Source of the DNA: Deltaproteobacteria bacterium
Lineage (GTDB): Bacteria > Desulfobacterota > Syntrophia > Syntrophales > UBA2210
Length of the DNA stretch: 64,000 nucleotides
Assembly: GCA_016933965.1 (NCBI GenBank)
Contig: JAFGTS010000006.1
Span: forward strand, 51,069 to 115,068
Direction: 5' to 3'
The position numbers were made by a program, and so were the translations under genes. The notes beneath the pieces are model-generated. The model worked only from the letters and a program-made list of their open reading frames with translations, was not told where the DNA came from and ran no database searches. Positions 23,152 through 59,733 of this stretch are shown here, piece by piece. Positions within the stretch are counted from its first letter, which is position 1; each line of letters starts with the position of its first letter.

Positions 23152-23182
23152 AAAAGGGCCAGCATTCTGGTGCTGACCCTTT
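23152..23182. terminator. Hairpin terminator at left island boundary
   Basis: GGGCCAGCA (23156-23164) pairs with TGCTGACCC (23171-23179), with one G-T type mismatch, flanked by AAAA and TTT. It can end the LPP20 gene. The minus-strand reading matches the terminator behind tRNA-Leu at 59674-59697, so it is probably the displaced original tRNA terminator. Confidence 0.65.
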
Positions 23183-23215
23183 CATGTATTCATGGTGCCG
23201 AAGCCGGGACTTGAA
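23171..23215. repeat. Left attachment-like direct repeat (tRNA-Leu 3' fragment)
   Basis: 45 bases matching 59689-59733 with a single mismatch (23186 G versus 59704 A). Bases 23193-23215 equal the last 23 bases of the tRNA-Leu gene on the minus strand, including CCA and the T-arm. The match stops at 23215, inside what would be the T-loop/stem, and no tRNA 5' part follows. This is the expected structure of a tRNA-site attachment repeat. Confidence 0.85.
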
Positions 23216-23541
23216 TGCTCGGAAATCAAAAATTCAAAAACGCAGGTATTCCGACCTTTTCCTTTTATTACAGTATGTTAAAGAGACTTTTTGAGTTCTT
23301 CAATATGTGAAATACGTTCAATAATTGCATCAAAAATGAACCAAAGGGGACCCAAAAGGACCCCAAGAAAAACCAGTTTTTTCTTCTGAGAGAAGGCTTA
23401 AAATCACATAAACCCGACTAATGAGAATGTGTTTCAAAAATAAACCGCTGTTCCAGTCGTGAGACTGAAACAACAATCTTCTTTACAAGCCATACAATAA
23501 GGAAACTGGATAACCTTTTTCTTGTTACCCTTGTCGACATA
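23216..23541. other. Non-coding left edge of the island
   Basis: 326 bases with no convincing gene. Composition becomes AT-rich at once. A short minus-strand open stretch ends near 23281 (a tail reading HIEELKKSL) and could be the remains of a decayed protein, but it is too short to assign. An integrase gene, expected here in a tRNA-integrated element, is not present in intact form. Confidence 0.5.
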
Positions 23542-24351
23542 TCAAGAAGGTATTGTATCTACGTTTATGAAACTCGGTTCATGAATCGGTATTATTATGT
23601 CAGCCATCTCATTTACTCGAGCCTGGCTCTTATATGTTTCAACTAGATCAAGATGTATCGCTGGCGGAATAACAGTCATTCCTCTTTTTATTAAAGCGAC
23701 ATCCGGCCTAAAATTAGCCAGACAACTGCAAGCTCCGTAAATTATCGCTTTTCCTTTGCCGGTTTCAACACTTACTGATTGTGTGCCTGTCGTGTGTCCC
23801 GCAGTCAGTAATACATCTATGCCATCCATAATGTTAGTATCGCCTTCAACTGTTTCCATGTTGTTAATAGCACCTATCAGGTCCTCGGGATATGAGCCCT
23901 TGAATAAAGGAAATTCATTCCATTTCGGTGCCTCTTCCAACTCCACTTTTTGAACGATAAAGGTAGCATTTTGAAATTTGGGCGCCAGTGCTATATGATC
24001 GTGATGAAGATGAGTTAAGATAACAATATCAATATCATCTGGCCTTACCCCCCACTTTCCAAGACCCTCTTCCAAACTCTGAATAGTTTTGGCCCCGGGA
24101 AAACCTCGTTCAGCAAGTATTTCGGCGTTCGGTCCAGCATCAACGCACACTTTCTTGGAACCACCTTCTATGTACCATACGTATACCGTCAAATCGACTT
24201 TCTGCCCGTAGTTTTGCAGGTGAGTCAACTTGGGCATATCTGTACTGACTGACATAAGCGGAATCGGGTGGATCAAATATTCTGATGTCATTTTCCCCTC
24301 CATCATAAAACCTGCATTTGAATCGGGTTCTAAAAGAGTATCAATTACCAT
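23542..24351 (-). CDS. MBL-fold hydrolase, AHL-lactonase-like
   Basis: 269 residues. The metallo-beta-lactamase metal motif is present (LTHLHHDH), with later metal histidines in AGHTTG and PIHEPSF. The usual bridging aspartate of the GD motif is replaced: the text reads IIYGACSCLANF. That pattern occurs in lactonase-like subgroups, so the metal site may be altered. It could hydrolyse a lactone or thioester. It is the last minus-strand gene of the island's left half. Quorum-quenching activity is not shown. Confidence 0.78.
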   Translation of the reverse strand: MVIDTLLEPDSNAGFMMEGKMTSEYLIHPIPLMSVSTDMPKLTHLQNYGQKVDLTVYVWYIEGGSKKVCVDAGPNAEILAERGFPGAKTIQSLEEGLGKWGVRPDDIDIVILTHLHHDHIALAPKFQNATFIVQKVELEEAPKWNEFPLFKGSYPEDLIGAINNMETVEGDTNIMDGIDVLLTAGHTTGTQSVSVETGKGKAIIYGACSCLANFRPDVALIKRGMTVIPPAIHLDLVETYKSQARVNEMADIIIPIHEPSFINVDTIPS

Positions 24352-24441
24352 TATCCCTTTCTTTTTATTAGTGATATGGCCGCACTTATCATGAATCGTG
24401 TGTCATGTTTTTTTAAATGACTGTTGAAAAAATAAATTAAA

Positions 24442-24456
24442 TGGCGTAGTTGTTGC
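24442..24456 (+). promoter_or_regulatory. Sigma-54 promoter upstream of uspA
   Basis: TGGCGTAGTTGTTGC matches the -24/-12 consensus with GG and GC separated by exactly 10 bases and a TTGC -12 element. The predicted transcript would start near 24468 and run into uspA at 24531. Confidence 0.65.
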
Positions 24457-24471
24457 AATATATTTAGAATA

Positions 24472-24497
24472 TTATCCGCTGAAGCTGAAGCGGATAA
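24472..24497 (+). repeat. Inverted repeat in the uspA leader
   Basis: TTATCCGCT (24472-24480) and AGCGGATAA (24489-24497) form a perfect 9-base stem with an 8-base loop. It lies between the -24/-12 motif and the uspA start, so it is either a leader RNA hairpin or an operator. Confidence 0.55.
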
Positions 24498-24530
24498 GCA
24501 TTATCTCATTTCACAATAAAGAGGTGAAGC

Positions 24531-25049
24531 ATGATACCCAGGATAAGAAAAGTTTTATATACAACGGATCTTTCAAAGAACTCTGCCTATGCCTTTCGGT
24601 ATGCTATCAATACGGCTCGACAGCATAACGCAAAAATCCATATTCTCCATGTGATTGAAGCACTACCGCCAACAGCTGAAACATTTCTTCTATTGAACCT
24701 CGGGAAGAAGAAAGTTGCTCAAACACGTCAGGGATTGCAGGAAGAATTGCGCAAGAAAATAGAGGAACGTATAGCAAAATTCGCAGAAATAGAATTGAAA
24801 GATGAGCCTGAGACACTAAAACGGATTGTAGGCATTCACGTTGTTTACGGAGATCCAGTTTCAGAGATTTTGAGTAAGACGGATGAGCTTGGCTGTGACA
24901 CGATTATTATGGGAACCCATGGAAAGGGGACCGTTACTCATACCTTTTTAGGTAGTGTTGCAGAAAAGGTACTCCGTCGTATTCGAAAACCCGTTTATAT
25001 CATCCCCTTGCCGAAAGGCGATATCGACATCAGTTTTAAAGAAATCTGA
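24531..25049 (+). CDS. Universal stress protein (UspA family)
   Basis: 172 residues, one Usp domain. The ATP-binding signature G-x2-G-x9-G-S is visible in GTHGKGTVTHTFLGS, near the C-terminus. The N-terminus (KVLYTTDLSKNSAYAFRYAI) is typical. It is the only plus-strand gene in the island's left half and lies behind a sigma-54-type promoter. Such proteins respond to starvation or redox stress; the specific role here is unknown. Confidence 0.9.
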   Translation: MIPRIRKVLYTTDLSKNSAYAFRYAINTARQHNAKIHILHVIEALPPTAETFLLLNLGKKKVAQTRQGLQEELRKKIEERIAKFAEIELKDEPETLKRIVGIHVVYGDPVSEILSKTDELGCDTIIMGTHGKGTVTHTFLGSVAEKVLRRIRKPVYIIPLPKGDIDISFKEI

Positions 25050-25168
25050 TTGGTTCGGTCTTGAAAACCAGGGAGGCCTATCTGCAAGATTACGTGCGCT
25101 CAATGTATTGAAGCGATAACGCACTATGAGAATGAACGTATCCTCGTAAAAAATTGATTGCGTGAAAC

Positions 25169-25726
25169 CTAAAATTCTATGCCAGCACGCTCTTTTATCC
25201 CTGCTGCATAATGGTGTTTGATTTCAGTTACTTCACTTACCATATCAGCCAGTTCGATAACGTCCTGGTGGGCATATCGACCGGTTATCACAAGATCCAT
25301 TTCCGGTGGTTTTGTGCGTATCAACTCCAGTACTTTATCACGATCGACCAGGTTGAAATCGAGAGCTACATTTAATTCATCGAGGATGACCATGTTATGT
25401 TGATTGGCCCCGACCACCTCATACGCTCGCTCAAGGCCTTTTTGGGCAAGTTCAATATCCACGGGTGCGGGATTATCTCTTATGACAAAACTGTCGAGAC
25501 CAAATGTTTCAATGGTAAATCCCGGAAGGTGGGTCTCTGCCGCAACTGCTTCACCGTACTTTCTTCCTTTCATAAACTGAATCATGTGGACCGTGAACCC
25601 ATGGCCGATGGCCCTCAGTGCCTGTCCCAGGGCGGAGGTTGTTTTACCTTTCCCATTCCCCGTTATCACCATTACTAGTCCATGCTGCTCATGCGTCTTT
25701 ATTACCTCTTTAACACGTTCGTTCAT
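25169..25726 (-). CDS. cobO: Cob(I)yrinic acid a,c-diamide adenosyltransferase
   Basis: 185 residues, CobO/BtuR family. It attaches the adenosyl group to cobalt(I) corrinoids to make adenosylcobalamin. The P-loop GNGKGKTT is at residues 23-30, followed by QFMKGRKYGE, the VILDELNVAL Walker B and VITGRYAH motifs. It lies beside the small and large subunits of a B12 mutase on the same strand, so it probably supplies or repairs that enzyme's cofactor. Confidence 0.93.
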   Translation of the reverse strand: MNERVKEVIKTHEQHGLVMVITGNGKGKTTSALGQALRAIGHGFTVHMIQFMKGRKYGEAVAAETHLPGFTIETFGLDSFVIRDNPAPVDIELAQKGLERAYEVVGANQHNMVILDELNVALDFNLVDRDKVLELIRTKPPEMDLVITGRYAHQDVIELADMVSEVTEIKHHYAAGIKERAGIEF

Positions 25727-25946: not shown

Positions 25947-26360
25947 TCAGATTGCTCTCTCCTCAATGGACACATTTTTTCTGATCCATTCCACAATTGA
26001 TTCCAGCGTTGAGCCGGGGGTAAAGATCGCCTTGATCCCCGCATCATGCATTAATTGAGAATCCTGATCCGGGATGATCCCTCCGCCTATAACGGTAATA
26101 TCGTCAGCGCCTTTATTTCGCAGTAATTCCACTACCCGGGGAAAGAGATATCGATGAGCACCGGAAAGGCAACTGAGCCCGACTATATCAACATCTTCCT
26201 GTATGGCGGCTTCTGCAATCTGTTCGGGTGTCTGGTGACAGCCCGTATAAATGACCTCGAACCCGGCATCACGTAAAAAGCGCGATAAGATTCTGGCACC
26301 GCGGTCGTGTCCGTCAAGTCCCGGTTTGGCAACCATGATACGAAGTTTTCTTTCCGCCAT
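25947..26360 (-). CDS. B12-binding subunit of acyl-CoA mutase A
   Basis: 137 residues, a stand-alone cobalamin-binding domain. The cobalt-ligating motif DGHDRG is at residues 16-21 (His18 as lower ligand), and the GGGIIPDQD loop follows. In classic mutases this domain is fused to the catalytic barrel; here it is a separate gene 25 bases downstream of the large subunit, as in isobutyryl-CoA mutase (IcmB) and 2-hydroxyisobutyryl-CoA mutase. Confidence 0.93.
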
Positions 26361-26385
26361 TGCCTCAACCTCCTCTCAGCTCTCT

Positions 26386-28071
26386 TCAGTACATGGCCGG
26401 GTCCGCATATTCGCCGTATATTTCCCGATACACATCACATATTTCCTGGAGGGTCGCCAAGTTTTTGACCGCCTCGATGCAGTGCGGCATGACATTTTCT
26501 CCCTTATGGCAGGCTGTGCGGATATCGTTCAGGCTTGCTTTGACCGCCTTGCTGTTGCGCTTTTGTCGCACGTGGTTTAAGCGTTCAATCTGTTTTTTCT
26601 CCATGCCGTCATCTATTTCGAGAAATGGAATTTCCCCGGTTTCTTCCGTCTGATATTTATTTACCCCGACCATCACTTTTTCACCTGCTTCGAGCTGCTT
26701 CTGAAACTGATATGCGGCGTCTGCAATTTCCATCTGTGGGAAGCCCTTTTCGATAGCAGCGATCATACCGCCCATGTTGTCTATTTTGTGTATGTATTCC
26801 CATGCCTTTTCTTCCATTTCGTTTGTCAGGGATTCTATGAAATATGATCCTGCCAGGGGATCAATGGTATTGGCCACACCCGTTTCTTCTGCGAGAATCT
26901 GCTGTGTTCTCAGTGCAATCTCCACGGCGTGATCGGTAGGAAGACACCAGACTTCATCGAGGGAGTTGGTATGGAGCGACTGTGTTCCGCCAAGCACTGC
27001 CGCAAGGGCCTCAAAAGCCGTTCGGACCACGTTGTTGTACGGTTGCTGGGCAGTCAGTGAGCAGCCTGCCGTCTGAGTATGAAATCGCATCCACCATGAA
27101 CGGGGGTCTTTTGCCTTGAACCGTTCGCGCATCACTTTGGCCCAAATGCGCCGGGCGGCTCTCATTTTGCAAATTTCTTCAAAGAAATCGATGTGGGAAT
27201 TGAAGAAAAAGGAAAGTCGTGGTGCAAAATCATCTACGTCAAGGCCTTTCTGTTTCATTACATAGTCCACATACTCGATGCCGTCACGAAGAGTGAAGGC
27301 CAGTTCCTGCACTGCCGTGGAGCCGGCTTCTCTGATGTGGTACCCGCTGATACTTATGGTGTTCCATTTTGGAACGTATTTCGTGCCGAATTCAACGGTG
27401 TCACTGATCAGTTTCACTGATGGTTCCGGTGGGCACATGAAAGTCTTTTGAGCAATGAATTCCTTCAACATGTCGTTCTGGATCGTCCCACCGATTTTAT
27501 CGAGAGATACTCCCTTTATCTGCGCTGCCGCGCAGTACATGGCCCATAATACGGATGCGGGAGGATTTATCGTCATCGATGTGGTGATTTTATCCATCGG
27601 GATGCCGTCAACGAGCTGCATGAAATCTTCAAGCGTATCGATGGCGACACCGCATTTGCCGCACTCTCCCCGGGCGTGGGGATCATCGGAGTCGTAACCC
27701 ATGAGTGTGGGAAAATCGAAGGCCGTGCTGAGGCCGGTCTGCCCCTGTTTGAGAAGGAGATGCCACCGATTATTGGTGTCCTTGGCGCTTCCCATCCCGG
27801 AGAACATTCGGAATGTCCAATAGCGGCCGCGATATCCCGTTACCTGGTTGCCGCGAAGGTAGGGATACTGTCCGGGATATCCGATGTCACGTTCGAACTC
27901 CATGCCCGCGATATCCTCAGGGCCATACAGTCGCCTGATTTCAAGATCTGAAACCGTTGACCAGCGTTCCTTCTGGTCGGCCTGCCTGGCAACGGCCTTT
28001 TTGACCTCATCCTCCCATTTCTTTTTCAATACGCCGGATTGATCGGGTGTGTTCTTGGTGAAGTACCCCAT
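26386..28071 (-). CDS. Acyl-CoA mutase A large subunit (isobutyryl-CoA mutase type)
   Basis: 561-residue adenosylcobalamin-dependent mutase barrel without B12 domain. At the positions that set substrate choice it has Phe90 (RMFSGMG) and Gln208 (KEFIAQK), the pair known from isobutyryl-CoA mutase, instead of the Tyr/Arg of methylmalonyl-CoA mutase. Ala117 also differs from the Asp of 2-hydroxyisobutyryl-CoA mutase. Other active-site residues are intact (SISGYH, APRLSFF, RFHTQTAG). It probably interconverts isobutyryl-CoA and butyryl-CoA or similar unbranched/branched pairs. Automatic annotation would call it methylmalonyl-CoA mutase. Confidence 0.88.
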   Translation of the reverse strand: MGYFTKNTPDQSGVLKKKWEDEVKKAVARQADQKERWSTVSDLEIRRLYGPEDIAGMEFERDIGYPGQYPYLRGNQVTGYRGRYWTFRMFSGMGSAKDTNNRWHLLLKQGQTGLSTAFDFPTLMGYDSDDPHARGECGKCGVAIDTLEDFMQLVDGIPMDKITTSMTINPPASVLWAMYCAAAQIKGVSLDKIGGTIQNDMLKEFIAQKTFMCPPEPSVKLISDTVEFGTKYVPKWNTISISGYHIREAGSTAVQELAFTLRDGIEYVDYVMKQKGLDVDDFAPRLSFFFNSHIDFFEEICKMRAARRIWAKVMRERFKAKDPRSWWMRFHTQTAGCSLTAQQPYNNVVRTAFEALAAVLGGTQSLHTNSLDEVWCLPTDHAVEIALRTQQILAEETGVANTIDPLAGSYFIESLTNEMEEKAWEYIHKIDNMGGMIAAIEKGFPQMEIADAAYQFQKQLEAGEKVMVGVNKYQTEETGEIPFLEIDDGMEKKQIERLNHVRQKRNSKAVKASLNDIRTACHKGENVMPHCIEAVKNLATLQEICDVYREIYGEYADPAMY

Positions 28072-28151: not shown

Positions 28152-29282
28152 TCATACAATGTTCCGGGCGATGACGATCCGCTGAACTTCAGACGTGCCT
28201 TCATAGATGGCGGTTACCCGTGCATCGCGATACAACCGTTCTATCTTATACTCTGATATATAACCGTATCCGCCATGGATCTGCAGAGCCTTGTATGCTG
28301 CCCTGTTTGCCAGTTCCGAGGCAAAGAGCTTTGCCATCGAGGCTTCTTTCGTAAACGGGAGATTTTTATCTTTCCGATCGGCTGCTGACAGAGCGAGCCA
28401 GTTCGCTGCCTCGATCTGGGTTGCCATGTCGGCTATCATCCACTGTATTGCCTGAAAGGAACTGATCGGCCGTCCGAACTGCTTTCTGTCCTGAGCGTAT
28501 TGAACCGCTTCATCCAGACAAGCCCGGGCAATTCCCACCGACTGTGAAGCAATGCCTATCCGACCACTGTCAAGAGCGGTCATGGCCACTTTGAATCCCT
28601 GACCTTCCCGGCCCAGTAAATTCTCTTTCGGAATCCTGCAGTCGTCGAAGACAAGTTCCACCGTATCCGAGGCCTTAAGACCCATTTTCTTTTCTTTTTT
28701 ACCGATGGAAAAACCGGGGGTGCCTTTTTCAACAACCAGTGCTGAGAGCCCACGGTTGCCCCTCTGTGTGTCGGTTCGGACAATAAGATTGATGAGATCG
28801 GCATAGCTTCCGTTCGTGATGAACACCTTCGTGCCGTTTACCAGGTAGTGATCTCCCTTGTCTTCCGCGCGTGTCTTCATGCTTCCCGGATCTGAACCGG
28901 CGTCAGGCTCTGTGATGGCAAAGGCACCGAGCGTTTCTCCACCAGCAAGGGGCAGCAGATGTTGTTCCTTCTGCGCCTCATTCCCGAATTTCAGAAGAGG
29001 TTCGGTGGAAAGGTTTGCCACGGACATGGTAACTGCCGTGGAGGCACAGGCGTAGGCAATTTCCTGCAGGGCCAGGGAATAACTGACCGCTCCCGCTCCA
29101 ACTCCTCCGTAGTCAGGAGGGACCATCATGCCCATCAGTCCCAGTCCCCCCATCTTTTTTATGACGCTCTGGGGGAATATTTCTTTTTCATCCCATTCGC
29201 CGGCGTAAGGCTCCAGTTCCTTCTTGGCGAAGTCCCGAGCCATCAATCTGACCATCTCCTGTTCGCTTGTGAGTTGAAACAA
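28152..29282 (-). CDS. Acyl-CoA dehydrogenase 1 (short-chain type)
   Basis: 376 residues, FAD-dependent alpha,beta-dehydrogenation of an acyl-CoA, passing electrons to ETF. The catalytic glutamate is in place (AIYEGTSEVQRIVIARN near the C-terminus), and the FAD motifs AITEPDAGSDPGSM and QIHGGYGY are normal. It lies 80 bases upstream of mutase A on the same strand and downstream of thiolase and the XRE-cupin gene. Butyryl-CoA or 2-methyl-branched acyl-CoA are likely substrates. Confidence 0.92.
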   Translation of the reverse strand: MFQLTSEQEMVRLMARDFAKKELEPYAGEWDEKEIFPQSVIKKMGGLGLMGMMVPPDYGGVGAGAVSYSLALQEIAYACASTAVTMSVANLSTEPLLKFGNEAQKEQHLLPLAGGETLGAFAITEPDAGSDPGSMKTRAEDKGDHYLVNGTKVFITNGSYADLINLIVRTDTQRGNRGLSALVVEKGTPGFSIGKKEKKMGLKASDTVELVFDDCRIPKENLLGREGQGFKVAMTALDSGRIGIASQSVGIARACLDEAVQYAQDRKQFGRPISSFQAIQWMIADMATQIEAANWLALSAADRKDKNLPFTKEASMAKLFASELANRAAYKALQIHGGYGYISEYKIERLYRDARVTAIYEGTSEVQRIVIARNIV

Positions 29283-29294
29283 CGGGCAGTCCTC

Positions 29295-29858
29295 CTATGG
29301 AACATAAATTATGACCAGAAGCTCCGTGGTCTCTTTTGAGGGATTACTAAGCTTGTGCTGGAGCGCCGAGTTGAAGTGTATGCTCCCTCCCGGCTTCAGT
29401 TTTGTTACGTTTTCACCAACCTGGATGGTGAGTTCCCCCTTCAGGACATATATGAATTCTTCTCCCTCATGATGGTATTCAACACCCTTATGCTTTGTCC
29501 GGGAATCAATGGTTACGAGATATGCCCTCAGATGCTTATCCATTCCCGGACGGGTCAATGAAGTATAGGCATAGGAATCAACCCTTTTTTTATGGCTTTT
29601 CACTCGGCGGCGTGAAGCCTGTTTTTCCTCTTCCGTGTCAAGCTGGGCAACGTCGATTTTGAAAGTCCGGTTGAGCTGCAGGACGAGTGAAACGGGCGGG
29701 ACGGTCTCGTCGGCTTCGACGTGCTGCAGTATTTCCTTGGTATATCCCGTTTCGTGAGCCAGTTCTTCCAGGCTCAATTCCTGCTCTTCGCGCAGAACGC
29801 GTATCCTCTGACCGAATGATTTCCACTTCTTTTCTTTTTTCGGCATAGTCGTCATCAC
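29295..29858 (-). CDS. XRE-type regulator with cupin sensor domain
   Basis: 187 residues. The N-terminal helix-turn-helix (RIRVLREEQELSLEELAHETGYTKE) is joined to a C-terminal cupin (KGVEYHHEGEEFIYVLKGELTIQVG), the usual arrangement for small-molecule-responsive repressors. It overlaps the thiolase stop by 4 bases and sits 12 bases ahead of the acyl-CoA dehydrogenase, so it likely senses a pathway intermediate and tunes its own operon. Confidence 0.88.
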   Translation of the reverse strand: MMTTMPKKEKKWKSFGQRIRVLREEQELSLEELAHETGYTKEILQHVEADETVPPVSLVLQLNRTFKIDVAQLDTEEEKQASRRRVKSHKKRVDSYAYTSLTRPGMDKHLRAYLVTIDSRTKHKGVEYHHEGEEFIYVLKGELTIQVGENVTKLKPGGSIHFNSALQHKLSNPSKETTELLVIIYVP

Positions 29859-31042
29859 TCCATTTCGATAATCATGGTGACCGCTTCACCTCCTCCGAGG
29901 CAGAGCGATGCCTGACCAAGCTGAAGATGCCTTTTCTTCATTTCGTGAATAAGCGTTGTCATTACCCGCGCACCCGATGCCCCGATGGGATGACCGAGGG
30001 CTATTGCACCGCCGTTCACGTTGAGCTTGTCGTGATCAATACCTAATACTCTCATGACTCCCACGGTGGACCCGGCAAAGGCCTCGTTGATTTCATGCAG
30101 CTCGATGTCGGTTAGAGCGAGTCCCGCCTTCTTCAGTGTTTTGGGAATGGAATGTGCGGGTGCCATGAGAACATGTTCGAGTTCAATACCGGCAGTTCCG
30201 CAGGCGATGATCCTGGCGAGTACGGGCAACCCTCTCTCTTTGGCGAGCCTTCTCGATGCAATGACGAGTGCCGACGCTCCATCGCTGATAATCGAGGAGT
30301 TCCCGGCTGTAGCGTACCCGACTTTCTGGAATGCCGGTTTCATTTGAGAGAGAACGTCCATGGACGTCGGCCGAGGGCCTTCATCGGTATCGATGGTAAT
30401 ACGCTGGTTCTTTCGATCCAGGTATGTCACAGGAACTATTTCCTCGATAAATTTTCCTGATTCCTGTGCCATGACGCTTCTTCGATAGGATTCACAGGCA
30501 AAAGCGTCCTGATCTTCTCTGCTTATCCCCCATTTGCTGGATACAATATCGTTGGTCAGTCCCATGTGAAAATCATTGACGACATCCCAGAGACCATCAT
30601 GCACCATATGATCTGCGAGATTTCCGTTCCCCATTCGTATGCCGAGCCGCGAATGTGGGAGGTAATGGGGCGCGGCACTCATATTTTCCATGCCTCCCGC
30701 TACCACAATGTCAGCAAAGCCGGTCTGTATGTACTGAGACGCCAGTACCGCCGCCATAAGGCCCGATCCACAGACCTTATTGATGGTGATGGCACCTTTT
30801 TCGATTGGAATGTCTGCCCTGATTGATGCCTGGCGTGCAGGATTCTGGCCATACCCGCATGGAAGGACCATGCCCATGATGACTTCGTCGATATCGGTAT
30901 TGCTGAGACCTGCTCGTCTTATTGCTTCCCTGATAACAATGGCACCAAGTTCTGTGCCCGGAAGGTGACTCAATCCCCCCTGAAATATTCCCATGGGCGT
31001 TCTGCAGGAGCTTATAATCACAACATCTTCGGCGCGTTTCAT
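29855..31042 (-). CDS. Acetyl-CoA C-acetyltransferase (thiolase)
   Basis: 395 residues. Catalytic motifs are intact: the acylated cysteine in NKVCGSGLMA, the HEINEAFAG stretch, GHPIGASGAR, and a C-terminal CLGGGEA. It would split acetoacetyl-CoA into two acetyl-CoA in the degradative direction. First gene of a four-gene minus-strand unit: thiolase, regulator, acyl-CoA dehydrogenase, mutase A. Confidence 0.93.
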   Translation of the reverse strand: MKRAEDVVIISSCRTPMGIFQGGLSHLPGTELGAIVIREAIRRAGLSNTDIDEVIMGMVLPCGYGQNPARQASIRADIPIEKGAITINKVCGSGLMAAVLASQYIQTGFADIVVAGGMENMSAAPHYLPHSRLGIRMGNGNLADHMVHDGLWDVVNDFHMGLTNDIVSSKWGISREDQDAFACESYRRSVMAQESGKFIEEIVPVTYLDRKNQRITIDTDEGPRPTSMDVLSQMKPAFQKVGYATAGNSSIISDGASALVIASRRLAKERGLPVLARIIACGTAGIELEHVLMAPAHSIPKTLKKAGLALTDIELHEINEAFAGSTVGVMRVLGIDHDKLNVNGGAIALGHPIGASGARVMTTLIHEMKKRHLQLGQASLCLGGGEAVTMIIEME

Positions 31043-31178
31043 AGAAGTTCCTCTTGTCAGTGTGGAATGGTATTTCGACTAGAGAGCCTTTTTTATGGTA
31101 TCATTCTAAATCATGCATCCTTTCATCCTCTGCTCTGGTAATTAGAAAAATGGGTTTGCTTGTTTTGTATGTGCAGCT

Positions 31179-32051: not shown

Positions 32052-32058
32052 TACCCGT

Positions 32059-34769: not shown

Positions 34770-34818
34770 GATTGGAGCACCTCATTATGTGTTGTAGACG
34801 CGGATACCGGAAATTTCT

Positions 34819-34833
34819 GCAAGAATCTGACCA
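34819..34833 (-). promoter_or_regulatory. Sigma-54 promoter upstream of the MFS gene
   Basis: On the minus strand TGGTCAGATTCTTGC matches TGGCACG-N4-TTGC, with exact GG-N10-GC spacing. The -12 element ends 50 bases before the MFS start, giving a leader of about 40 bases. Confidence 0.68.
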
Positions 34834-35010
34834 ACAATAAAGCGGGAGATCAAAATTTACTCTGGATTTTTATTTGAGGCATTTTTATGTCGGTTTAGTG
34901 GTGGGAAAAGATAAATAATATCAAAAAAGGAATACATTCTCCTGATGATTGGAGGATATCCTTGATGTATAAAAGATTAAAGTACGAATTTTACATACCA
35001 GATATCCCTA

Positions 35011-49155: not shown

Positions 49156-49274
49156 GTGCAACAATGTGTTGAAACAAGGTCATAAAATCGTTATTGAAGG
49201 CAATTTTTCGACTGCTACATGCATTTTAAATTCCTCTGTATCGTAATTGATGTCATGAAAAAAAGAAATAACAG

Positions 49275-50573: not shown

Positions 50574-50839
50574 AAGTAGAAGACAAACTGGCTCTCAATA
50601 AGTTCGACGTGGACAGGGATGTTCATATCACGGTGAATGACGTCGTATGCGTTGAATGTGAACTGAAACCCTGTGTGAGCGTCTGCCCGGCCGAGTGTTA
50701 TGTAATCAGAGAAAATCATATGACGTTTTCTTACGAGGGGTGCCTTGAGTGCGGCAGTTGCCGCATTGCGTGCCCAAAGGGTGCAATAGATTGGGTGTAT
50801 CCGCGCGGAGGATTCGGCATCTGCTATCAATACGGTTAA
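50570..50839 (+). CDS. fixX: FixX-like ferredoxin
   Basis: 89 residues. Two cysteine sets are visible: CVECELKPCVSVCPAECY and CLECGSCRIACPKG, enough for one to two [4Fe-4S] clusters. The start ATG overlaps the fixC stop by 4 bases (ATGA). In the Fix system it accepts electrons from FixC. etfB/fixA follows by 13 bases. Confidence 0.92.
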   Translation: MKVEDKLALNKFDVDRDVHITVNDVVCVECELKPCVSVCPAECYVIRENHMTFSYEGCLECGSCRIACPKGAIDWVYPRGGFGICYQYG

Positions 50840-50852
50840 AAAAGGAGGAGTA

Positions 50853-51650: not shown

Positions 51651-51662
51651 GAGAGGGGAAAA

Positions 51663-52655
51663 ATGAGTGATTATAAGGGTATTTTTGTGGTTGGAGAAAT
51701 CGAGAATGGCTCGTTGTCCTCGTTAACCAGGGAGCTTCTTGGAGGAGCGAGAAGGCTGGCGGATACGATGCAGGATGAAGTCGGGCTTTTTCTGGTTGCA
51801 AAGGAACCCGGCAATGCAGGTCAGGAGGGAATCACCCTGGGAGCAGACAAGGTGTATGTATCCACAGATCCTGCCCTGTTGGACATGAACCCTGACGCCT
51901 ATGTCTTTGTCGTGACGCACCTGTGCAGTCAGATAAAGCCGCTGCTGTGCCTGATCGGTCAAACAGATCTGGGACGTGACCTGGCACCGCGGGTGGCCGC
52001 ACGACTGGAAGCAGGGCTCTGCATGGATTGCATTCACGTTGACGTGAATGAAGAGAGAAATGGTTTTATTCAGACGAGGCCTGCATACGGGGGAAAGGCC
52101 CTTTCGGTAATTGCTTCCACAAACGGCAGACCACAGGTGAATACCGTGCGATCAAAGGCGATGGAACCTCTTCTGCCGCAGGACCAGCGAACGGGCGAAA
52201 CAATTGCTGTTCAAGAGAGCCCGGATTCCTCTTCGATCAGGATCAGGATTCTCGAACGGGAGGCAGCCACATCCGGGGGGATCAAGCTGGAGGATGCAAA
52301 AGTTATTGTCGCCGGTGGCGGGGGGATTGGTGGACCCGAGGGCTTTGACATGATCAAAGACCTGGCTCGGAGAATCGGGGGCGAAGTGGGTGCCACACGA
52401 GTTCCGGTTGATGAAAACTGGGTTCCCTTGAGCATGGAAATAGGTCAGACGGGAAAGATCGTCAATCCGGAACTGTATATTGCCATTGGTATTTCCGGGG
52501 CAGCACAGCACATTACCGGGTGCCTGAATTCAAAAACAATAGTGTCAATCAACAAAGATCCTGATGCAAACATCTTTAAGATTTCCGATATCGGGCTTGT
52601 TGGTGATTACCGGGATGTTCTGCCCGTGTTAATAGAAAAATTTCAAGAGAGATAG
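51663..52655 (+). CDS. fixB: Electron-transfer flavoprotein alpha subunit (FixB)
   Basis: 330 residues. The C-terminal FAD domain is clear: AGGGGIGGPEGFDMIKDLA, GATRVPVDENWVP, EIGQTGKIVNPELYIAIGISGAAQH. It partners FixA. Together with FixC and FixX it provides the electron exit for the two acyl-CoA dehydrogenases. Confidence 0.95.
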   Translation: MSDYKGIFVVGEIENGSLSSLTRELLGGARRLADTMQDEVGLFLVAKEPGNAGQEGITLGADKVYVSTDPALLDMNPDAYVFVVTHLCSQIKPLLCLIGQTDLGRDLAPRVAARLEAGLCMDCIHVDVNEERNGFIQTRPAYGGKALSVIASTNGRPQVNTVRSKAMEPLLPQDQRTGETIAVQESPDSSSIRIRILEREAATSGGIKLEDAKVIVAGGGGIGGPEGFDMIKDLARRIGGEVGATRVPVDENWVPLSMEIGQTGKIVNPELYIAIGISGAAQHITGCLNSKTIVSINKDPDANIFKISDIGLVGDYRDVLPVLIEKFQER

Positions 52656-53027: not shown

Positions 53028-54059
53028 ATGTTTGAAAAAAAGAACAAATTATTTGCCATTATTGTTGCGGTGTCACTGTTGACAGTTCTCATTTCTTTTC
53101 AAGACTCAAATGCCGCCTCCCAAGGTAAAGATGTTATCAAGATTAGAATGGTAGGAACCCTTCCTGTTGGGCATCACCTGACCGATGCTTTAAACCTTTA
53201 TAAAAAGTATGTTGAAGAAAAATCACAAGGAAGAGTTATCGTAGAGATTTTTCCAGCTCAACAACTTTATAATGACAAAGATTTAGTAAGTGTACTGCCT
53301 AGGGGTGCCGTTGATATGGCAATTGCAAACCTAGACATGTGGGCTGGTCTAAATCCTTCAGTTAGCTTTCTTACAATGCCACTCATCTTCGATAGTGAGG
53401 ATCACTTCTACGCAGTTGCTCATGGAGAAGCCGGAGATATCATAAATGGCGAGTTTCTTAAAGTTAACTGTAAAACATTGGGATGGATTCAGTATGGTAC
53501 GGCCGATATTATAAGTAAAGAACCTTATGCTACTCTTGAGGATTTTAAGGGGAAGCGTGTACGTGCCTATGGCCAGATGTGCCAATATTTTTTGGAGGCA
53601 CTTGGGATGGCACCTACAATGATGAGTTCGAGTGAAATGTATCAGGCATTGCAAAAGGGAACCATAGATTTAGCAATGTCAGGATTAACCTCATTCGTTT
53701 CTCGTAAATTATATGAAGTGGCAAAGTACGTGCCGGATGTAACGCTATCATACAACGCTGGTGCATTTGGTACTGTTGCAAATTTAGATTTCTACAATAA
53801 CCTTCCTAAAGATATTCAGAAAATATTGGATGATGGTGCTTTAGAAATAGAAAATTTTACTAGAGAGCGGGCAAAAGAAGCTACGGTAAAAAGCCGTCAG
53901 ATATTACTTGATAATGGTGTAACGTTCCTGAAGATTTCTGATGAACAACTTGCCAATTGGAAAGCAAGGACCTTACCCGTTATGAAAGCGCGTTTGAAGG
54001 AAAATTATGATAGCGACAAAGTGGATATAATGTTCGATGCATTAGAAAAGCATAAATAG
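53028..54059 (+). CDS. dctP: TRAP transporter solute-binding protein DctP 2 (orphan)
   Basis: 343 residues, signal peptide about 1-29. It is clearly a paralogue of DctP 1: it shares GTLPVGHHLT, PAQQLYNDKDLVSVLPRGAVDMA (as two stretches), FKGKRxRAYGQ and PTMMSSxExYQALQKGTID. Long DNA identity around 53252 and 43743 points to a fairly recent duplication. No permease lies next to it, so it may share the DctQM protein at 44720 with a different ligand. Confidence 0.9.
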   Translation: MFEKKNKLFAIIVAVSLLTVLISFQDSNAASQGKDVIKIRMVGTLPVGHHLTDALNLYKKYVEEKSQGRVIVEIFPAQQLYNDKDLVSVLPRGAVDMAIANLDMWAGLNPSVSFLTMPLIFDSEDHFYAVAHGEAGDIINGEFLKVNCKTLGWIQYGTADIISKEPYATLEDFKGKRVRAYGQMCQYFLEALGMAPTMMSSSEMYQALQKGTIDLAMSGLTSFVSRKLYEVAKYVPDVTLSYNAGAFGTVANLDFYNNLPKDIQKILDDGALEIENFTRERAKEATVKSRQILLDNGVTFLKISDEQLANWKARTLPVMKARLKENYDSDKVDIMFDALEKHK

Positions 54060-54078
54060 AAATATCACACCCAAATGT

Positions 54079-54123
54079 GGACACACACAGCCAGGTAGCC
54101 TTTTTTAAGGGTTGTGTGTGTCC
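54079..54123. repeat. Inverted repeat after DctP 2
   Basis: GGACACACACA (54079-54089) and TGTGTGTGTCC (54113-54123) form a perfect 11-base stem with a 23-base loop, 19 bases after the dctP stop. A T-run lies in the loop rather than after the stem, so it is a possible terminator or mRNA-stabilising hairpin. Confidence 0.55.
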
Positions 54124-54751
54124 ATAATCAAAAGAGACAAAATCCGGTAAGGAATTGCCTTGTGATATGTTTTTTATACTTAAAAAATGCTTGATGTAAT
54201 TGTGTGCCGTGGAATCGCAATATATGACCTCTGTTTTAAGCGTACAAGAGTAAACGACTCATTAATGGTTTTAGCGTAACAGTTTCTCGCTGAGCCCATG
54301 TATTTTGAAGGATTATGCTGTTTAAGAATATGTTAACAGGGTGGACATGCTGAATGTCTTGTGTTCTTGGTGAAAAACGGTGACGGACTCAGGTGTCGAC
54401 TCCATTATTGCTCGTTCATGAAACTGTATGATTATGTTCTAGCTGAACCGTTCTCATTATTAAGATTGGCCAGCCACTTAACGATTATAAAAATGCAAGT
54501 TAAACGCCAGAAAAATCCGATACTGCTGGCGTCTCTTGTAAAACAAGCTCTTGTAAGTGACGAAATCAACTGCCACTTTCACACATTCAATGATCATTCT
54601 CCGCAACTAATGAGAAAGGGTTCGATGTTGAAAGTTTGTTCATGTTTTCTGCGATGTTCAGATGGATAGTTCGCTCTTCTCAGTGAATTCACTAAACCGA
54701 AAGGAGAACGTTCCATATCAAAGCAGAAATATAATTATAGGAGGAATGGTG
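54124..54751. other. Long intergenic region before PrpD 2
   Basis: 628 bases. A 102-codon open frame (54361-54669) has no family look and no ribosome site, so it is not called. The only clear signal is AGGAGG at 54739-54744 for the next gene. The composition is mixed, and the stretch may hold regulatory sites that I could not resolve. Confidence 0.5.
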
Positions 54752-56110
54752 ATGTCGCTATCCCGGCAACTCGCTAACTTCGTTTTGGAAACGGATTATG
54801 ACAGTGTTCCACAGACGGCCCTGCAGCGAGCGAAGCACCATATCATCGATTGCCTCGGCTGCATGCTGGCCGGCACCAGAGAGCCACTTGCCGGTATCCT
54901 GGGAACATACATAGACACAGTTGGGGGCAGGCCGCAAGCCTCCATCCTTGGTAGCGAAACACAAACATCGATCTATAATGCGGCCATGATCAATGGAACT
55001 CTCGGCCACGCCCTTGATTTCGATGACATGAGCAGCTCGTTGATCGGTCATCCCACGACCGTTATCCTGCCAACGATTCTTGCCCTGGGGGAGTATCAGA
55101 AAATCAGTGCCAGAAAGGCGTTGGAAGCTTACGTACTGGGTGTCGAGGTTGCCTGCGCATTGGGAAGGCTTATGAATCCAGGCCACTATCAGCAGGGTTG
55201 GCACCCGACAACGTCACTGGGTATCTTCGGAGCAACTGCAGCCGCGGGCAAGCTGCTTGGAGTGAGCGAAGCGGAACTGGCCCATGCCTTTGGCATAGCG
55301 GCAAGCGAGGCTTCTGGCATACGGGAAAACTTCGGGACGATGACAAAACCGTTTCACGCGGGAAGAGCGTCTGCCAAGGGCTTTCTGTCAGCCATGCTGG
55401 CTAGGACGGGATTCAACTCATCGGACAGGGCCTTTGAGGGCGATGCCGGATTCTTACGGGCTACATGCGACCACTATGACATTGAAGAAACTTTGAAAAC
55501 GCTGGGTAATCCATACGAGTTGGTATCACCCGGGCTCTCTATTAAGAAGTATCCGTCATGCGGAGCTACTTCCAATGGTATTGACGCCATGATCAGTCTG
55601 GCGGAAGACAACGCCATTCTGACTGATTCCGTCAAGAGCATAGAGTGTGGTTCGGTTCCAATCGCGAAAGACGTCCTGATATACGAAGTACCCAGAAATG
55701 GTTTAGAGGGTAAGTTCAGCATGCATTTTTGCCTGGCGGTGGCACTGGCGGAAAAGAAGGTAACTCTCGAGCATTTTCATGATCCATGGATCAATAATCC
55801 CACCATCAGTGATCTGATGAATAAAACGACGTTCACCGTTGCTCCCGAACTGGCACAGTATGGCTATCGAGGGACGTTTAACACACTGTTGAAAGTTTCC
55901 CTTTTCAATGGTGATGAGTATGTGCTCAAGGTCGATCACGCCAAAGGTTCTCCGGAGAACCCTCTTTCCGAAGCTGAGGTGTTTGAAAAATATACACATT
56001 GTGCGGAGGGGGTCTTGCCAGACGGCAAAATCGAACGATCAATTGAAATGCTGAGCGATTTTCCCATGCTTGAAGATCTGTCGGACTTGCTGAAAGTCCT
56101 GCGGAAATAA
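54752..56110 (+). CDS. MmgE/PrpD family protein 2
   Basis: 452 residues from ATG 54752, 7 bases after AGGAGG; in-frame ATG 54746 is too close and the open frame to 54662 is unsupported. Motifs: HALDFDDMSSSLIGHPTT and NFGTMTKPFHAGRASAKGFLSAMLA, close to PrpD 1. It is the first gene of a tight unit with the ene-reductase (16 bases) and PrpD 3 (12 bases). Confidence 0.9.
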   Translation: MSLSRQLANFVLETDYDSVPQTALQRAKHHIIDCLGCMLAGTREPLAGILGTYIDTVGGRPQASILGSETQTSIYNAAMINGTLGHALDFDDMSSSLIGHPTTVILPTILALGEYQKISARKALEAYVLGVEVACALGRLMNPGHYQQGWHPTTSLGIFGATAAAGKLLGVSEAELAHAFGIAASEASGIRENFGTMTKPFHAGRASAKGFLSAMLARTGFNSSDRAFEGDAGFLRATCDHYDIEETLKTLGNPYELVSPGLSIKKYPSCGATSNGIDAMISLAEDNAILTDSVKSIECGSVPIAKDVLIYEVPRNGLEGKFSMHFCLAVALAEKKVTLEHFHDPWINNPTISDLMNKTTFTVAPELAQYGYRGTFNTLLKVSLFNGDEYVLKVDHAKGSPENPLSEAEVFEKYTHCAEGVLPDGKIERSIEMLSDFPMLEDLSDLLKVLRK

Positions 56111-56126
56111 GGGGAAGGATGGAAAA

Positions 56127-58085
56127 ATGAAATTATTCGAGCCATGTAAAATAGGCACTATTGAGTTAAAGAATCGATTGGTCCTGGCGCCTATGTCAAA
56201 CAATATGACGGATAACGGGTTCGTTACTGAAGAGGCGATACACTTTTACAAGGCACGTGCGGAGGGAGGAGTGGGACTCATCACCGTTGAGGATGGCATT
56301 GTTGATTATCCTCTTGCAAACAATGTCAAATCCCCCGTGGCCATCAGTGATGATAAATACATTCCCATGTTGAAAAAGCTGAATGATACGATACATCAAT
56401 ACGATGTAAAGACAGTCATGCAGTTGGCTCATGCCGGCAGACGGGCGGGTCGGGTAGCCAAATCAGGGTGCCTGGAAGTGACGAGGGGGAAAATCCCTGT
56501 CGCTCCGTCTGCGCTGGCGCACCCCGTTTCCGGGTATGTGGTGCCTCATGAATTGTCCAGAGATGAGATACGGGAGATAATTGAACAGTTCGGACAGGGA
56601 GCGAGAAGAGCGGTAAAAGCCGGTTTTGATTTTATTGCACTCCATTGTGCCCATATGTACCTCTGTGGGGAATTTCTATCGCCATGGGCGAATAAGAGGA
56701 AGGATGAGTATGGAAGAGGATTGAAGGGACGGCTCAGATTCGTATTGGAGGTGATTGAGCGGATACGGGCTGAAGCCGGGGAAGATCATCCCATTATTGT
56801 GAGAATCAATGGACAGGAACCCAGAGGAGGCAACAGCCTGGCAGATATACGCAGGATTGCGCAGGCGCTGGAAAAGGCAGGTGTTGACGCAATCCATGTG
56901 TCGGTCGGGTTTGCCGCCACGATCAAAGACCCGGAGTTTATTCCTTCCATCCCCTCGATGCGTTTTCCCGACGGGCCAATAATTCATCTCGCGAAGAATG
57001 TGAAAGATGGCGTTTCCATTCCGGTCATTGCAGTGAATAAAATACGAGACGCCAGGTTTGCGGAACAGATACTGCAGGAGGGGAAGGCTGATCTGATAGC
57101 GATGGGCAGAACGCTGGTTGCTGATCCTGAATTCCCCAAAAAATCGAAAGAGGGACGGTACGATGATGTGCGACCCTGTATATCCTGCTGTCAGGGTTGT
57201 ATCAACAGAGTATTAGCCGATCTTCCCATGAAATGTACCGTGAATCCCCTGGTCGGGAGAGAAGGGGAAAAGATCATTGAGCCTGCCGACCCCCCCAGGA
57301 AGGTAATGATCGTCGGCGGTGGACCGGCCGGTCTTGAAACAGCCCTTATCAGTGCGCAAAGAGGGAATACTGTGGTGCTGTATGAACAAAGTGGGAGCCT
57401 GGGAGGACAGATGAAGGATGCGGCGCTCCTGCCGTTTAAAAAGGAAATCAAGAAATTCACGGATTACCTGATCAGACAGGTTACCAAAGCTGGAGTCGCG
57501 ATTACATTAAACACGGTCGTCACGAATGAAATCATCAAAAAGGTAAGACCGGACATTTTAATAATGGCGGTTGGCGCCCAGCCGATCATTCCGGAGATAC
57601 CGGGTGTGAATAACGGGAACGTGGTAAAGGCGCAGGATGTGCTGAGAGAAACCGTCGATGTGGGGAACCGTGTACTGATAATCGGTGGTGGCGAATTAGG
57701 CCTGGAGACGGGCGAATTCCTTGGTCTCAAAGGCAAGAAGGTCACAATCGTCGAAATGACGAGTACGGTGGGAGCCACTATGCCTTCACAGACAAGGATG
57801 CCTCTTATGTTCAATCTTGAAAATCACAAAGTGAAAATCCTGACGCTGGCAACCCCTGTGAGCATAAATGACAAGGGCGTGGTGATAGAACAGTTGGGGA
57901 AAAAGAAACTCATTCCTGCGGATACCGTGGTTATCGCTGCCGGTTATAGGCCGCCGGACCGATCCGATATACAATCCCTGACCAAAGATGCCGCCTCTGT
58001 GATCATTATGCTCGGCAATTGTGGGAGTGTGGGTGATATCATGAATGCAGTCGAGAATGGGTTCAACTTTGCAGCGAGCATATAA
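56127..58085 (+). CDS. FMN/FAD/Fe-S ene-reductase (2,4-dienoyl-CoA reductase-like)
   Basis: 652 residues. Residues 1 to about 340 are an Old Yellow Enzyme FMN barrel; a [4Fe-4S] site follows (CISCCQGCINRV...KCTVNP), then a FAD/NAD(P)H domain (MIVGGGPAGLETALISAQRG). This is the 2,4-dienoyl-CoA reductase, enoate reductase and dehydrogenase architecture. The usual barrel segment H-x-A-H-G-Y-L...Y-G-G-S-x-E-N-R appears as HCAHMYLCGEFLSP...YGRGLKGR, partly degenerate. It probably reduces or oxidises a C=C next to a carboxyl group, between two PrpD genes. Confidence 0.9.
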   Translation: MKLFEPCKIGTIELKNRLVLAPMSNNMTDNGFVTEEAIHFYKARAEGGVGLITVEDGIVDYPLANNVKSPVAISDDKYIPMLKKLNDTIHQYDVKTVMQLAHAGRRAGRVAKSGCLEVTRGKIPVAPSALAHPVSGYVVPHELSRDEIREIIEQFGQGARRAVKAGFDFIALHCAHMYLCGEFLSPWANKRKDEYGRGLKGRLRFVLEVIERIRAEAGEDHPIIVRINGQEPRGGNSLADIRRIAQALEKAGVDAIHVSVGFAATIKDPEFIPSIPSMRFPDGPIIHLAKNVKDGVSIPVIAVNKIRDARFAEQILQEGKADLIAMGRTLVADPEFPKKSKEGRYDDVRPCISCCQGCINRVLADLPMKCTVNPLVGREGEKIIEPADPPRKVMIVGGGPAGLETALISAQRGNTVVLYEQSGSLGGQMKDAALLPFKKEIKKFTDYLIRQVTKAGVAITLNTVVTNEIIKKVRPDILIMAVGAQPIIPEIPGVNNGNVVKAQDVLRETVDVGNRVLIIGGGELGLETGEFLGLKGKKVTIVEMTSTVGATMPSQTRMPLMFNLENHKVKILTLATPVSINDKGVVIEQLGKKKLIPADTVVIAAGYRPPDRSDIQSLTKDAASVIIMLGNCGSVGDIMNAVENGFNFAASI

Positions 58086-58097
58086 GGAGATAACCGG

Positions 58098-59447
58098 GTG
58101 AGTGCGACAAAAATATTGGCGGATCATGTTTCTTCAATTCGGTATGAGACTCTCTCCGAGGAAGTTGTGCAGAAGACCAAGGCCACCATTCTTGATACAC
58201 TTGGTTGTGCAATTGCCGGTTTTACCCTGGCTTCCGATGAGATATCGCCCCTTTTACATCTGATTATGGAATCCGGCGGGCGACCGGAAGCAACAATTAT
58301 CGGGTCCGGCAACCGGACATCCTGCCTCAATGCCGCGCTGGTCAACAGTTCGATGACACATACCATTGATTATGATGATACTCATGTGCCATCGCTCGCA
58401 CATTTCGGATGCTGCACGGTACCCGCGGCCATTGCCCTGGGTGAAAAGATAGATGCCGGTGGCGCGGAGATCATAGCGGCTGTTGTGGCGGGTTTTGAAG
58501 CGGCGAGCAAGGTGGCACGGAGTGTCATGCCGAGCCATTATAGCTACTGGCACAGCACTGCAACAAATGGCGTCATCGCTGCAGCGGCAACTGTGGCGAA
58601 TCTGTTGAAATTTAACAGCGAGAAGACGGAGATGACCCTGGGTATGGCTGCCGATCAGGCCGCAGGGAGCCGGTATTGCCTGGACTACGGAGATTTCACA
58701 AAAAGTCTGCACCCGGGGATGGCAGCCTTTAACGGCATGCTTGCCGGGCTTTTGATTCAAAGAGGGAGCATCGGGCCAAAGGATTTCTTTGACTACGATA
58801 AAGGGTATTGCAACGTGTATTCCGATGAACCGCATATTAATATGATGACGGAGAATCTGGGCTCTCCCTATGAAATCATGATCAATGACATCAAGGGATT
58901 TCCAACAATTCTGTGCAGTCACACACCGGTACAGGCAACTCTGAAATTAGTTGAGGAAAATCATCTTCAAGCGTCGGATATCGAAAAGATCGTTGTTAAA
59001 ATGGTAACGCTGCCAAAGGGACAGGGATGTAATTATAATCCCGATACGCCAATGGCCGCGAGGTTGAGCATACCCTATTGCGTTGCCCTGGCCATAATTG
59101 ATAGGGCGGTTCAGCTAGAGTATTTTGAGATGGAGAAAATTCATGATCCCCGGATAAGGGAACTCATGGGGAAAATAACGATTTATCCAGACCCCGAATT
59201 GGATACATTCAAACCCGATATGCCGGCTGTCGTTGAGATTACGGACAAGAAAGGAAGGCACTTCGAATTGAAGTCCTTATATCCGAAGGGCTCTGTTAAA
59301 AATCCCATGACGGATGAGGAAATAAAAGAGAAGTTTATCCTGTTGGCATCCAACACTGTCAGTAAAACCAAGGCAAACAAAATAGTCAGCACCATAGATA
59401 CGCTGGAAACAACACGGTCCATCCGTTCGCTTGCCGAACTGTTTTAG
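58098..59447 (+). CDS. MmgE/PrpD family protein 3 (divergent)
   Basis: 449 residues from GTG 58098, with AAGGAG about 9 bases upstream. It keeps the fold motifs in altered form: HTIDYDDTHVPSLAHFGCCTVPA and DYGDFTKSLHPGMAAFNGMLAGLL. Compared with PrpD 1 and 2, the T-K-P-x-H-A-G stretch reads T-K-S-L-H-P-G. Different substrate or loss of activity is possible. Last gene of the island. Confidence 0.88.
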   Translation: MSATKILADHVSSIRYETLSEEVVQKTKATILDTLGCAIAGFTLASDEISPLLHLIMESGGRPEATIIGSGNRTSCLNAALVNSSMTHTIDYDDTHVPSLAHFGCCTVPAAIALGEKIDAGGAEIIAAVVAGFEAASKVARSVMPSHYSYWHSTATNGVIAAAATVANLLKFNSEKTEMTLGMAADQAAGSRYCLDYGDFTKSLHPGMAAFNGMLAGLLIQRGSIGPKDFFDYDKGYCNVYSDEPHINMMTENLGSPYEIMINDIKGFPTILCSHTPVQATLKLVEENHLQASDIEKIVVKMVTLPKGQGCNYNPDTPMAARLSIPYCVALAIIDRAVQLEYFEMEKIHDPRIRELMGKITIYPDPELDTFKPDMPAVVEITDKKGRHFELKSLYPKGSVKNPMTDEEIKEKFILLASNTVSKTKANKIVSTIDTLETTRSIRSLAELF

Positions 59448-59478
59448 CCATACGGGCACATTGTTGTGCTGAAGCATG

Positions 59479-59541
59479 AAACCCGCGGGCATCCCCTCAT
59501 CACTTCCCCCCCCCTTGTCCTTGGATCCCGCGGGTTTTTTT
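59479..59541 (+). terminator. Rho-independent terminator after PrpD 3
   Basis: AAACCCGCGGG (59479-59489) pairs with CCCGCGGGTTT (59527-59537); the stem can be extended by ATCC/GGAT with one bulge. It is followed by a T-run to 59541. Confidence 0.85.
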
Positions 59542-59667
59542 ACTCGAGGTATCGGATTTTCAGCATTATCAACGGGGTTGGTGTAAGAGAATGTTCGCAA
59601 TTTCGAGTAACAAAATCACTTCTCATTAAAACGTTGATCACACCTTGACCACCCTCCCCCCTCAACG

Positions 59668-59700
59668 AAAAAAGGGTCAGCAATTGCCTGCTGACCCTTT
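59668..59700 (-). terminator. Terminator of tRNA-Leu
   Basis: On the minus strand GGGTCAGCA and TGCTGACCC form a perfect 9-base stem with a 6-base loop followed by TTTTTT. It lies 11 bases after the tRNA 3' end. Half of it is part of the 45-base direct repeat. Confidence 0.88.
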
Positions 59701-59733
59701 CATATATTCATGGTGCCGAAGCCGGGACTTGAA
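59689..59733. repeat. Right attachment-like direct repeat in tRNA-Leu
   Basis: Matches 23171-23215 with one mismatch. It covers the last 23 bases of the tRNA gene (59711-59733) plus 22 bases downstream, including half of the terminator. The intact tRNA at this end fits the usual outcome of tRNA-site integration. Confidence 0.85.

Follow-up and report, generated by a model that had tools for sequence, protein, structure and literature searches.

The element ICEclc of Pseudomonas integrates at a tRNA gene. It is described as a tyrosine-integrase element that carries catabolic genes together with an integrase and transfer genes (PMC2704930). The ssrA islands of Dehalococcoides place accessory metabolic genes at one RNA gene, with truncated 3' repeats, insertion in the T-loop and a short conserved motif beside the repeat; an integration module is present in 16 of the 31 islands and lacking in 15, an example of how an integrase, although a common feature of tRNA islands, is often lost (PMC3146451). 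CGI48 of Shewanella putrefaciens is described as a composite island at a tRNA gene whose elements have different attachment sites; it has working integrases and excises (PMC8978831). Here we describe a block of catabolic genes bounded by a direct repeat of a tRNA-Leu 3' end, at 23171 to 59733 of a 64,000-nucleotide stretch, hereafter the window, of a Deltaproteobacteria bacterium (Syntrophales; UBA2210; contig JAFGTS010000006.1, positions 51,069 to 115,068). The block is probably a genomic island at tRNA-Leu(GAG) that is now fixed: its left end belongs to one type of element (type 1), its right end likely to another (type 2), and no integrase gene was found in it.

The block shares with the ssrA islands the features listed above. 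The ssrA islands differ in using serine recombinases and tmRNA, whereas the elements related to this block use tyrosine integrases and tRNA-Leu, and here the two ends are of different types (PMC3146451). The likeness to CGI48 lies in the composite structure; unlike CGI48, this block has no integrase that we could find, and its nesting is read from the ends (PMC8978831). With ICEclc it has in common the catabolic cargo and the association with tyrosine integrases, whereas neither the integrase nor the transfer genes described for ICEclc were found (PMC2704930). Judged by titles and the beginnings of abstracts, the literature search returned nothing on tRNA-Leu islands of this lineage; no paper pairing Smithellaceae with a genomic island was found.

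The two copies of the repeat, 23171-23215 and 59689-59733, are identical at 44 of 45 bases, and the identity extends through the terminator (57/64 between 23152-23215 and 59670-59733; blastn E 3e-19). A chance origin was rejected on these figures. The tRNA-Leu(GAG) is the sole tRNA called by ARAGORN in the window, and the left copy is not called as a tRNA; Rfam adds a further tRNA at 63942, cut by the right edge of the window. The hairpin behind the truncated copy is, to judge from its sequence, probably the original tRNA terminator. The conserved flanks have G+C contents of 0.584 and 0.583, compared with 0.483, 0.389, 0.444 and 0.465 for the island when it is divided into four successive blocks, and G+C at third codon positions (GC3) is 0.755 in the conserved flanks versus 0.39-0.56 inside. 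No tandem repeats were found between 15 and 60 kilobases (kb), and no Rfam RNAs reach gathering score within the island. An original prediction, made from the sequence alone, had described a repeat with one mismatch in 45 bases, a right copy formed by the 3' end of an intact tRNA-Leu(GAG), a partial left copy with a hairpin, and an interior richer in A+T than the flanks; the alignment, ARAGORN, the sequence itself and the G+C profile bear out all of these.

In relatives, tpiA, secG and tRNA-Leu(GAG) stay linked, with the tRNA present in 27 of the 29 tpiA loci scanned (ARAGORN). Behind the tRNA, tblastn of the left-flank proteins against the fetched loci places fbp and, farther on, fba, metG, psp1 and holB. 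Measured from the tRNA, the fbp alignment begins after 158-160 base pairs (bp) in G005, G008, G014 and G017, after 214 in G018 and after 287 in G016, six genomes of one genus (g6) in the same family as the host; the interval is 4.0 kb in G011, also of g6, and 8.3 kb in G006. In the window it comes to 44.4 kb, so the extra DNA runs from 15.4 to 59.7 kb and encloses the scar at 23.2 kb. The DNA missing at the empty sites thus exceeds the repeat-bounded block. The additional 7.8 kb between scar and fbp (15.4-23.15 kb; G+C 0.530, GC3 0.627) encodes envelope-type proteins, and its left border yielded no scar. Of 155 genomes of the order, 14, counting the own genome, contain a match to its LpoB-like protein (best 52%, in G144); none of the others comes from the host's family.

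The empty tRNA-Leu site that had been anticipated in relatives therefore exists, in these six genomes. The flanks, described earlier as housekeeping, are so on the tRNA side and up to fbp at 15.4 kb, while 15.4-23.15 kb is accessory; the repeat is not the left edge of the backbone. The gene at 22110, named as an LPP20 gene and as the neighbour at the empty site, encodes a protein of no Pfam family, the LPP20 match being at 18175-18750, and the conserved neighbour is fbp. Since the only match to this protein in the 60 genomes searched is in the own genome, with none in the other 59, the gene cannot serve for a junction test in relatives.

The left end was compared with other scars of the same kind. 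A tRNA 3'-end pattern run on 60 genomes, own included, led to 20 fetched places with extra or contig-end copies, comprising 12 full tRNAs, 6 truncated copies and 2 contigs that start exactly at the core. A stricter pattern, blind to copies with G at the tested base (for example G004) and to anticodon-loop scars, found truncated copies in six of the 155 order genomes (own, G022, G024, G054, G123 and G124), and the break at the T-loop base TTCAA is common to all six. On the island side, the own left end aligns with those of G123, G022, G124 and G054, which belong to another family than the host, at 70-80% over 91-193 bp, a length that takes in the 23-base core (blastn E 3e-14 to 1e-18). These type-1 ends share a GGGTCCC pair, in the window one base off and at a spacing of 10 instead of 11, and GGAAAAGRCCGGAATACCTG. 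Shuffling the own 200 bp 20000 times recreates this pair in 7 cases. G024 and G004 share the break at TTCAA and barely share the arm. By its homology to these ends, the left copy is a true attachment end of a type-1 element.

Two empty/occupied site pairs in genus g11 put the crossover at TTCAARTCCCGGCTTCGGCACCA. One pair is the GAG site, where the tRNA of G040 is intact and the flank behind it recurs in G054 (93% over 2449 bp) after an element end and the core TTCAAGTCCCGGCTTCGGCACCA. The CAG site is empty in G040; on contig C13 of G022 its flank follows an element end, aligning at 81% over 230 bp and, beyond about 0.8 kb present only in G040, at 92% over 399 bp. On contig C9 of G022 a tyrosine integrase of 401 residues (PF00589) ends 26 bp from tRNA-Leu(CAG), with GGGTCCCTTTTGGGTCCC within the last part of the gene. 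The integrase/tRNA-Leu end carries the same type-1 arm pair, and this complete example thus has the same pair at both ends. The 93-residue reading frame that precedes the integrase is perhaps an excisionase candidate. The same inner end is present in G123, where the integrase match has two in-frame stops, and in G122, where only its last 79 residues are on the contig. A phage origin of type 1 was considered and rejected, as a scan of viral contigs with the type-1 integrase gave 5 loci at 24-32% identity. Integration in tRNA-Leu, as originally proposed, is upheld by the empty sites and by the homology of the left end to element ends.

The right end is different. The type-1 pair is absent there, and a TTGGTCAAC pair, defined by at most two mismatches per motif, lies 59-64 and 70-76 bases past the CCA in 6 of 28 tRNA-Leu(GAG) loci (own, G004, G019, G039, G045 and G048). 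G045 has an intact integrase beside tRNA-Leu(GAG) and an outer scar that begins at the anticodon loop and carries the pair too, which makes it a complete type-2 example with the same pair at both ends. The own pair occurs at its own position in 2 of 20000 shuffles and anywhere in 160 bp in 39-43 of 20000. These matches indicate that the right end likely carries type-2 arm sites.

The visible absence of integrase, relaxase and mobility genes, noted in the original prediction, stands. Of the four PF00589 matches in the own genome, none lies on this contig; no type-1 integrase was found in the genome at E 1e-30, no integrase beside the own tRNA-Leu(GAG), as type 2 has it, and no serine recombinase (PF00239) in the whole genome. 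A Pfam scan of 30 of the 31 island proteins, the 102-residue open reading frame at 54361 being left out, gave no mobility, relaxase or conjugation families. Decay of an integrase in place was rejected: at E up to 1e-3, four integrases from relatives have no match in the 2.5 kb next to each border on the island side, and the matches against the whole window are no better than chance level. Behind tRNA-Leu(GAG) in relatives, the integrase is intact in G045, reduced to short or broken remnants in G019, G023 and G039, and borderline in G016 (E 9e-4), so integrase loss at this site looks recurrent.

As its ends are marked by different element types, the block does not look like one element that lost its integrase, and a chimera is the best reading of the mismatch. 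A type-1 tyrosine integrase would have recombined in the T-loop of the tRNA gene (TTCAAGTCCCGGCTTCGGCACCA), after which the displaced 3' end of the original gene, with its terminator, lay at 23.2 kb. A later type-2 element would have used the same tRNA gene and supplied its own 3' end and terminator. Because the type-2 outer scar and the type-1 inner end are both absent from the window, we infer that one or more internal deletions then took these two ends and both integrases, while the cargo stayed. The earlier proposal of an element integrated in a tRNA gene keeps its integration and its empty site and loses its single element; of the three fates it offered, fixed, decayed or passively mobilised, fixed or decayed fits best.

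Several observations weigh against this chimeric origin. The own type-2 pair is a short and degenerate copy, and the gapped local alignment score of the own arm is attained in 14 of 1000 shuffles against the G045 arm and in 730 of 1000 against the G006 arm. At equal tolerance, each motif pair, type 1 and type 2, matches once more in the window (34641 and 11087). No type-2 outer scar from the anticodon loop occurs in the window or among the pattern matches of the genome, a draft of 55 contigs, and the window has no type-1 inner end, that is, no GGGTCCC pair beside a tRNA with an integrase. The empty site is also not universal, since for G001, G004 and G009 the DNA fetched behind the tRNA (4.2, 2.9 and 12.2 kb) contains no fbp match, and the genomes searched included none of the host's own genus.

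The weak gapped alignment of the right end, together with a clearly type-1 left end, would suit a single type-1 element whose integrase end was lost by simple deletion, the type-2-like pair being a coincidence or an older scar. We consider this unlikely, because the right pair is placed as in five other genomes, at a position reached in so few shuffles, and the type-1 pair is missing at the right end. A single intact element is likewise not favoured, as the ends bear different motif pairs. It is very improbable that an integrase whose gene lies elsewhere in the genome mobilises the block as a single element with arm sets that differ. Such an enzyme could be the tyrosine recombinase that the own genome has at C11:64971, which shares about 30% identity with type-2 integrases, yet the complete examples of both types (G022 and G045) carry the same pair at both ends, the own genome lacks a type-1 integrase at the threshold given above, and the 30 scanned proteins include no relaxase or conjugation family.

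Scarcely credible is the idea that the left copy is the leftover of a tRNA duplication or a homologous exchange in a region that was never integrative. The terminator is kept in both copies and the 7.8 kb farther left is accessory as well, as this would allow; against it, the occupied and empty pairs demonstrate integration there, and the island-side sequence at the left copy has conserved counterparts at the element ends of another family, on which ground a plain tRNA duplication was rejected.

The chimeric origin suggests a further step, which we put forward tentatively and with slightly less than even confidence: the cargo would have been locked by an end swap, in which two unrelated integrase systems acted in turn and deletion left ends that neither enzyme can pair. 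Mobile cargo would then have turned permanent at one stroke, and tRNA-Leu would be a lineage-wide port at which elements dock, shed their integrases and deposit cargo, with defence genes in one genus and fuel genes here. The locus may offer a base-resolution case of a mobile metabolic island turning into a fixed part of the chromosome. With at least two element types, tRNA-Leu is a shared integration site at which the exchange of catabolic and defence cargo in the lineage could be tracked. It also cautions that a clean tRNA repeat pair need not enclose one element.

Table 1. Features of the tRNA-Leu(GAG) island and its borders. Positions are those of the window; both strands are given where a row mixes them.
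Feature	Position	Strand	Basis
fbp, first backbone gene behind tRNA-Leu in six family relatives	14418..15359	-	tblastn, Pfam
Second accessory stretch: BamE-like, LPP20, transglycosylase, LpoB and TPR proteins	15381..23150	+	Absent at empty sites too
Hairpin behind the truncated tRNA copy	23156..23179	-	Read from sequence; similar hairpins behind tRNA-Leu in relatives
Left repeat copy: truncated tRNA-Leu 3' end from TTCAAG, attachment scar	23171..23215	-	
Type-1 element end, conserved with G022, G054, G123 and G124, including the 23-base core	23189..23378	-	blastn
Conserved type-1 end motif GGAAAAGGTCGGAATACCTG	23243..23262	-	Alignment of ends
Type-1 arm pair, GGGTCCT and GGGTCCC, spacing 10	23347..23363	-	7/20000 shuffles
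Metallo-beta-lactamase-fold hydrolase (-), universal stress protein (+), cobalamin adenosyltransferase (-)	23542..25726		Pfam
Mutase 1, B12-binding and large subunits, predicted isobutyryl-CoA type	25947..28071	-	Pfam
Acyl-CoA dehydrogenase, HTH-cupin regulator, thiolase, succinate-CoA ligase alpha and beta	28152..33177	-	Pfam, NCBIfam
MFS transporter, MeaB GTPase, PAS sigma-54 activator	33513..37438	-	Pfam
Mutase 2 large and B12 subunits (predicted carboxylated acyl-CoA), ATC-hydrolase-like, MmgE/PrpD, CoA-transferase	37792..43354	+	Pfam, alignments, NCBIfam
TRAP transporter, enoyl-CoA hydratase family, methylmalonyl-CoA epimerase, acyl-CoA dehydrogenase, FixC/ETF-QO-like, ETF beta and alpha	43530..52655	+	Pfam, NCBIfam
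Second TRAP binding protein, MmgE/PrpD, enoate-reductase-like flavoenzyme, MmgE/PrpD	53028..59447	+	Pfam
Likely type-2 arm pair, TTGGTCAAC-like twice, spacing 11; 59 and 70 bases past CCA	59633..59652	-	
Terminator hairpin behind the intact tRNA	59674..59697	-	Read from sequence
Right repeat copy: tRNA 3' end and terminator	59689..59733	-	44/45 versus left copy
Intact tRNA-Leu(GAG), integration target	59711..59797	-	ARAGORN
secG, tpiA, gap: backbone, tRNA side	59877..62033	-	Pfam

The cargo is ordinary in kind, and the point of interest is the mismatched ends. Above curated Pfam cut-offs, 29 of the 30 scanned proteins fall in metabolic, transport, stress or regulatory families, in line with the earlier description of the interior as almost purely catabolic; the protein at 39977-40465 has a Pfam match only below the cut-off. 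The CoA-transferase (ScpC), the epimerase, SucD and one of two MeaB models score above NCBIfam cut-offs, and SucC, the mutase equivalog models and the MmgE/PrpD proteins score below them. Aligned to the Y and R of human methylmalonyl-CoA mutase, mutase 1 has F and Q and mutase 2 has Y and R. On the rule that F/Q marks isobutyryl-CoA mutases and Y/R marks enzymes for carboxylated substrates, the substrates of both mutases are predictions. From its gene content, we predict that the cargo serves to take up and activate organic acids, probably dicarboxylates, which would then be degraded via two coenzyme-B12 acyl-CoA mutases and beta-oxidation. No sigma-54 promoters for the PAS activator were found inside the island at up to one mismatch, and matches with two mismatches are uninformative.

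Paralogues of six left-block genes (mutase 1, its B12 subunit, adenosyltransferase, thiolase, HTH-cupin regulator and acyl-CoA dehydrogenase) are present on own contig C8 (L143 8012-15089), at 68-83% identity and in a different order. Mutase 2 has a best identity of 57% among other proteins of the 155 order genomes and of 70-73% to at least 11 database proteins (from the best 7999 candidates by shared words, which were scored), three of which are named from Desulfallas, Syntrophaceae and Smithellaceae. Used as bait on named genomes, it gave mutases of at most 50% identity among the 80 matches listed. Relatives (28-67%) of the TRAP, epimerase, MmgE, CoA-transferase, mutase, SucCD and MFS proteins stand together on G134:C78 (L140 1634-19900), without a known tRNA scar, a layout of the pathway that may be source-like. 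A mutase cluster lies behind the tRNA-Leu site in G040 and G123; at 32-49% identity and on the chromosomal side, it was read as an ordinary mutase cluster and rejected as this island.

Elsewhere in the own genome, a short C-terminal integrase fragment lies behind tRNA-Glu on contig C31 (L055 1154-1600), which looks like another stripped integration site. Among relatives, two contigs (L086, L087) start exactly at the TTCAAG core and three (L018, L019, L024) end exactly at the CCA of the tRNA, as if the source populations were mixed for the DNA behind tRNA-Leu. The type-1 element of G124:C105 (L113 1-15240) encodes a KAP NTPase, two unassigned proteins and a TatD nuclease in a row, an arrangement that we take to resemble QatABCD, and also NACHT, DNA methylase, HD and radical-SAM proteins. 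With its KAP NTPase, TatD, NACHT and DNA-methylase proteins, this element indicates that the cargo varies with the host.

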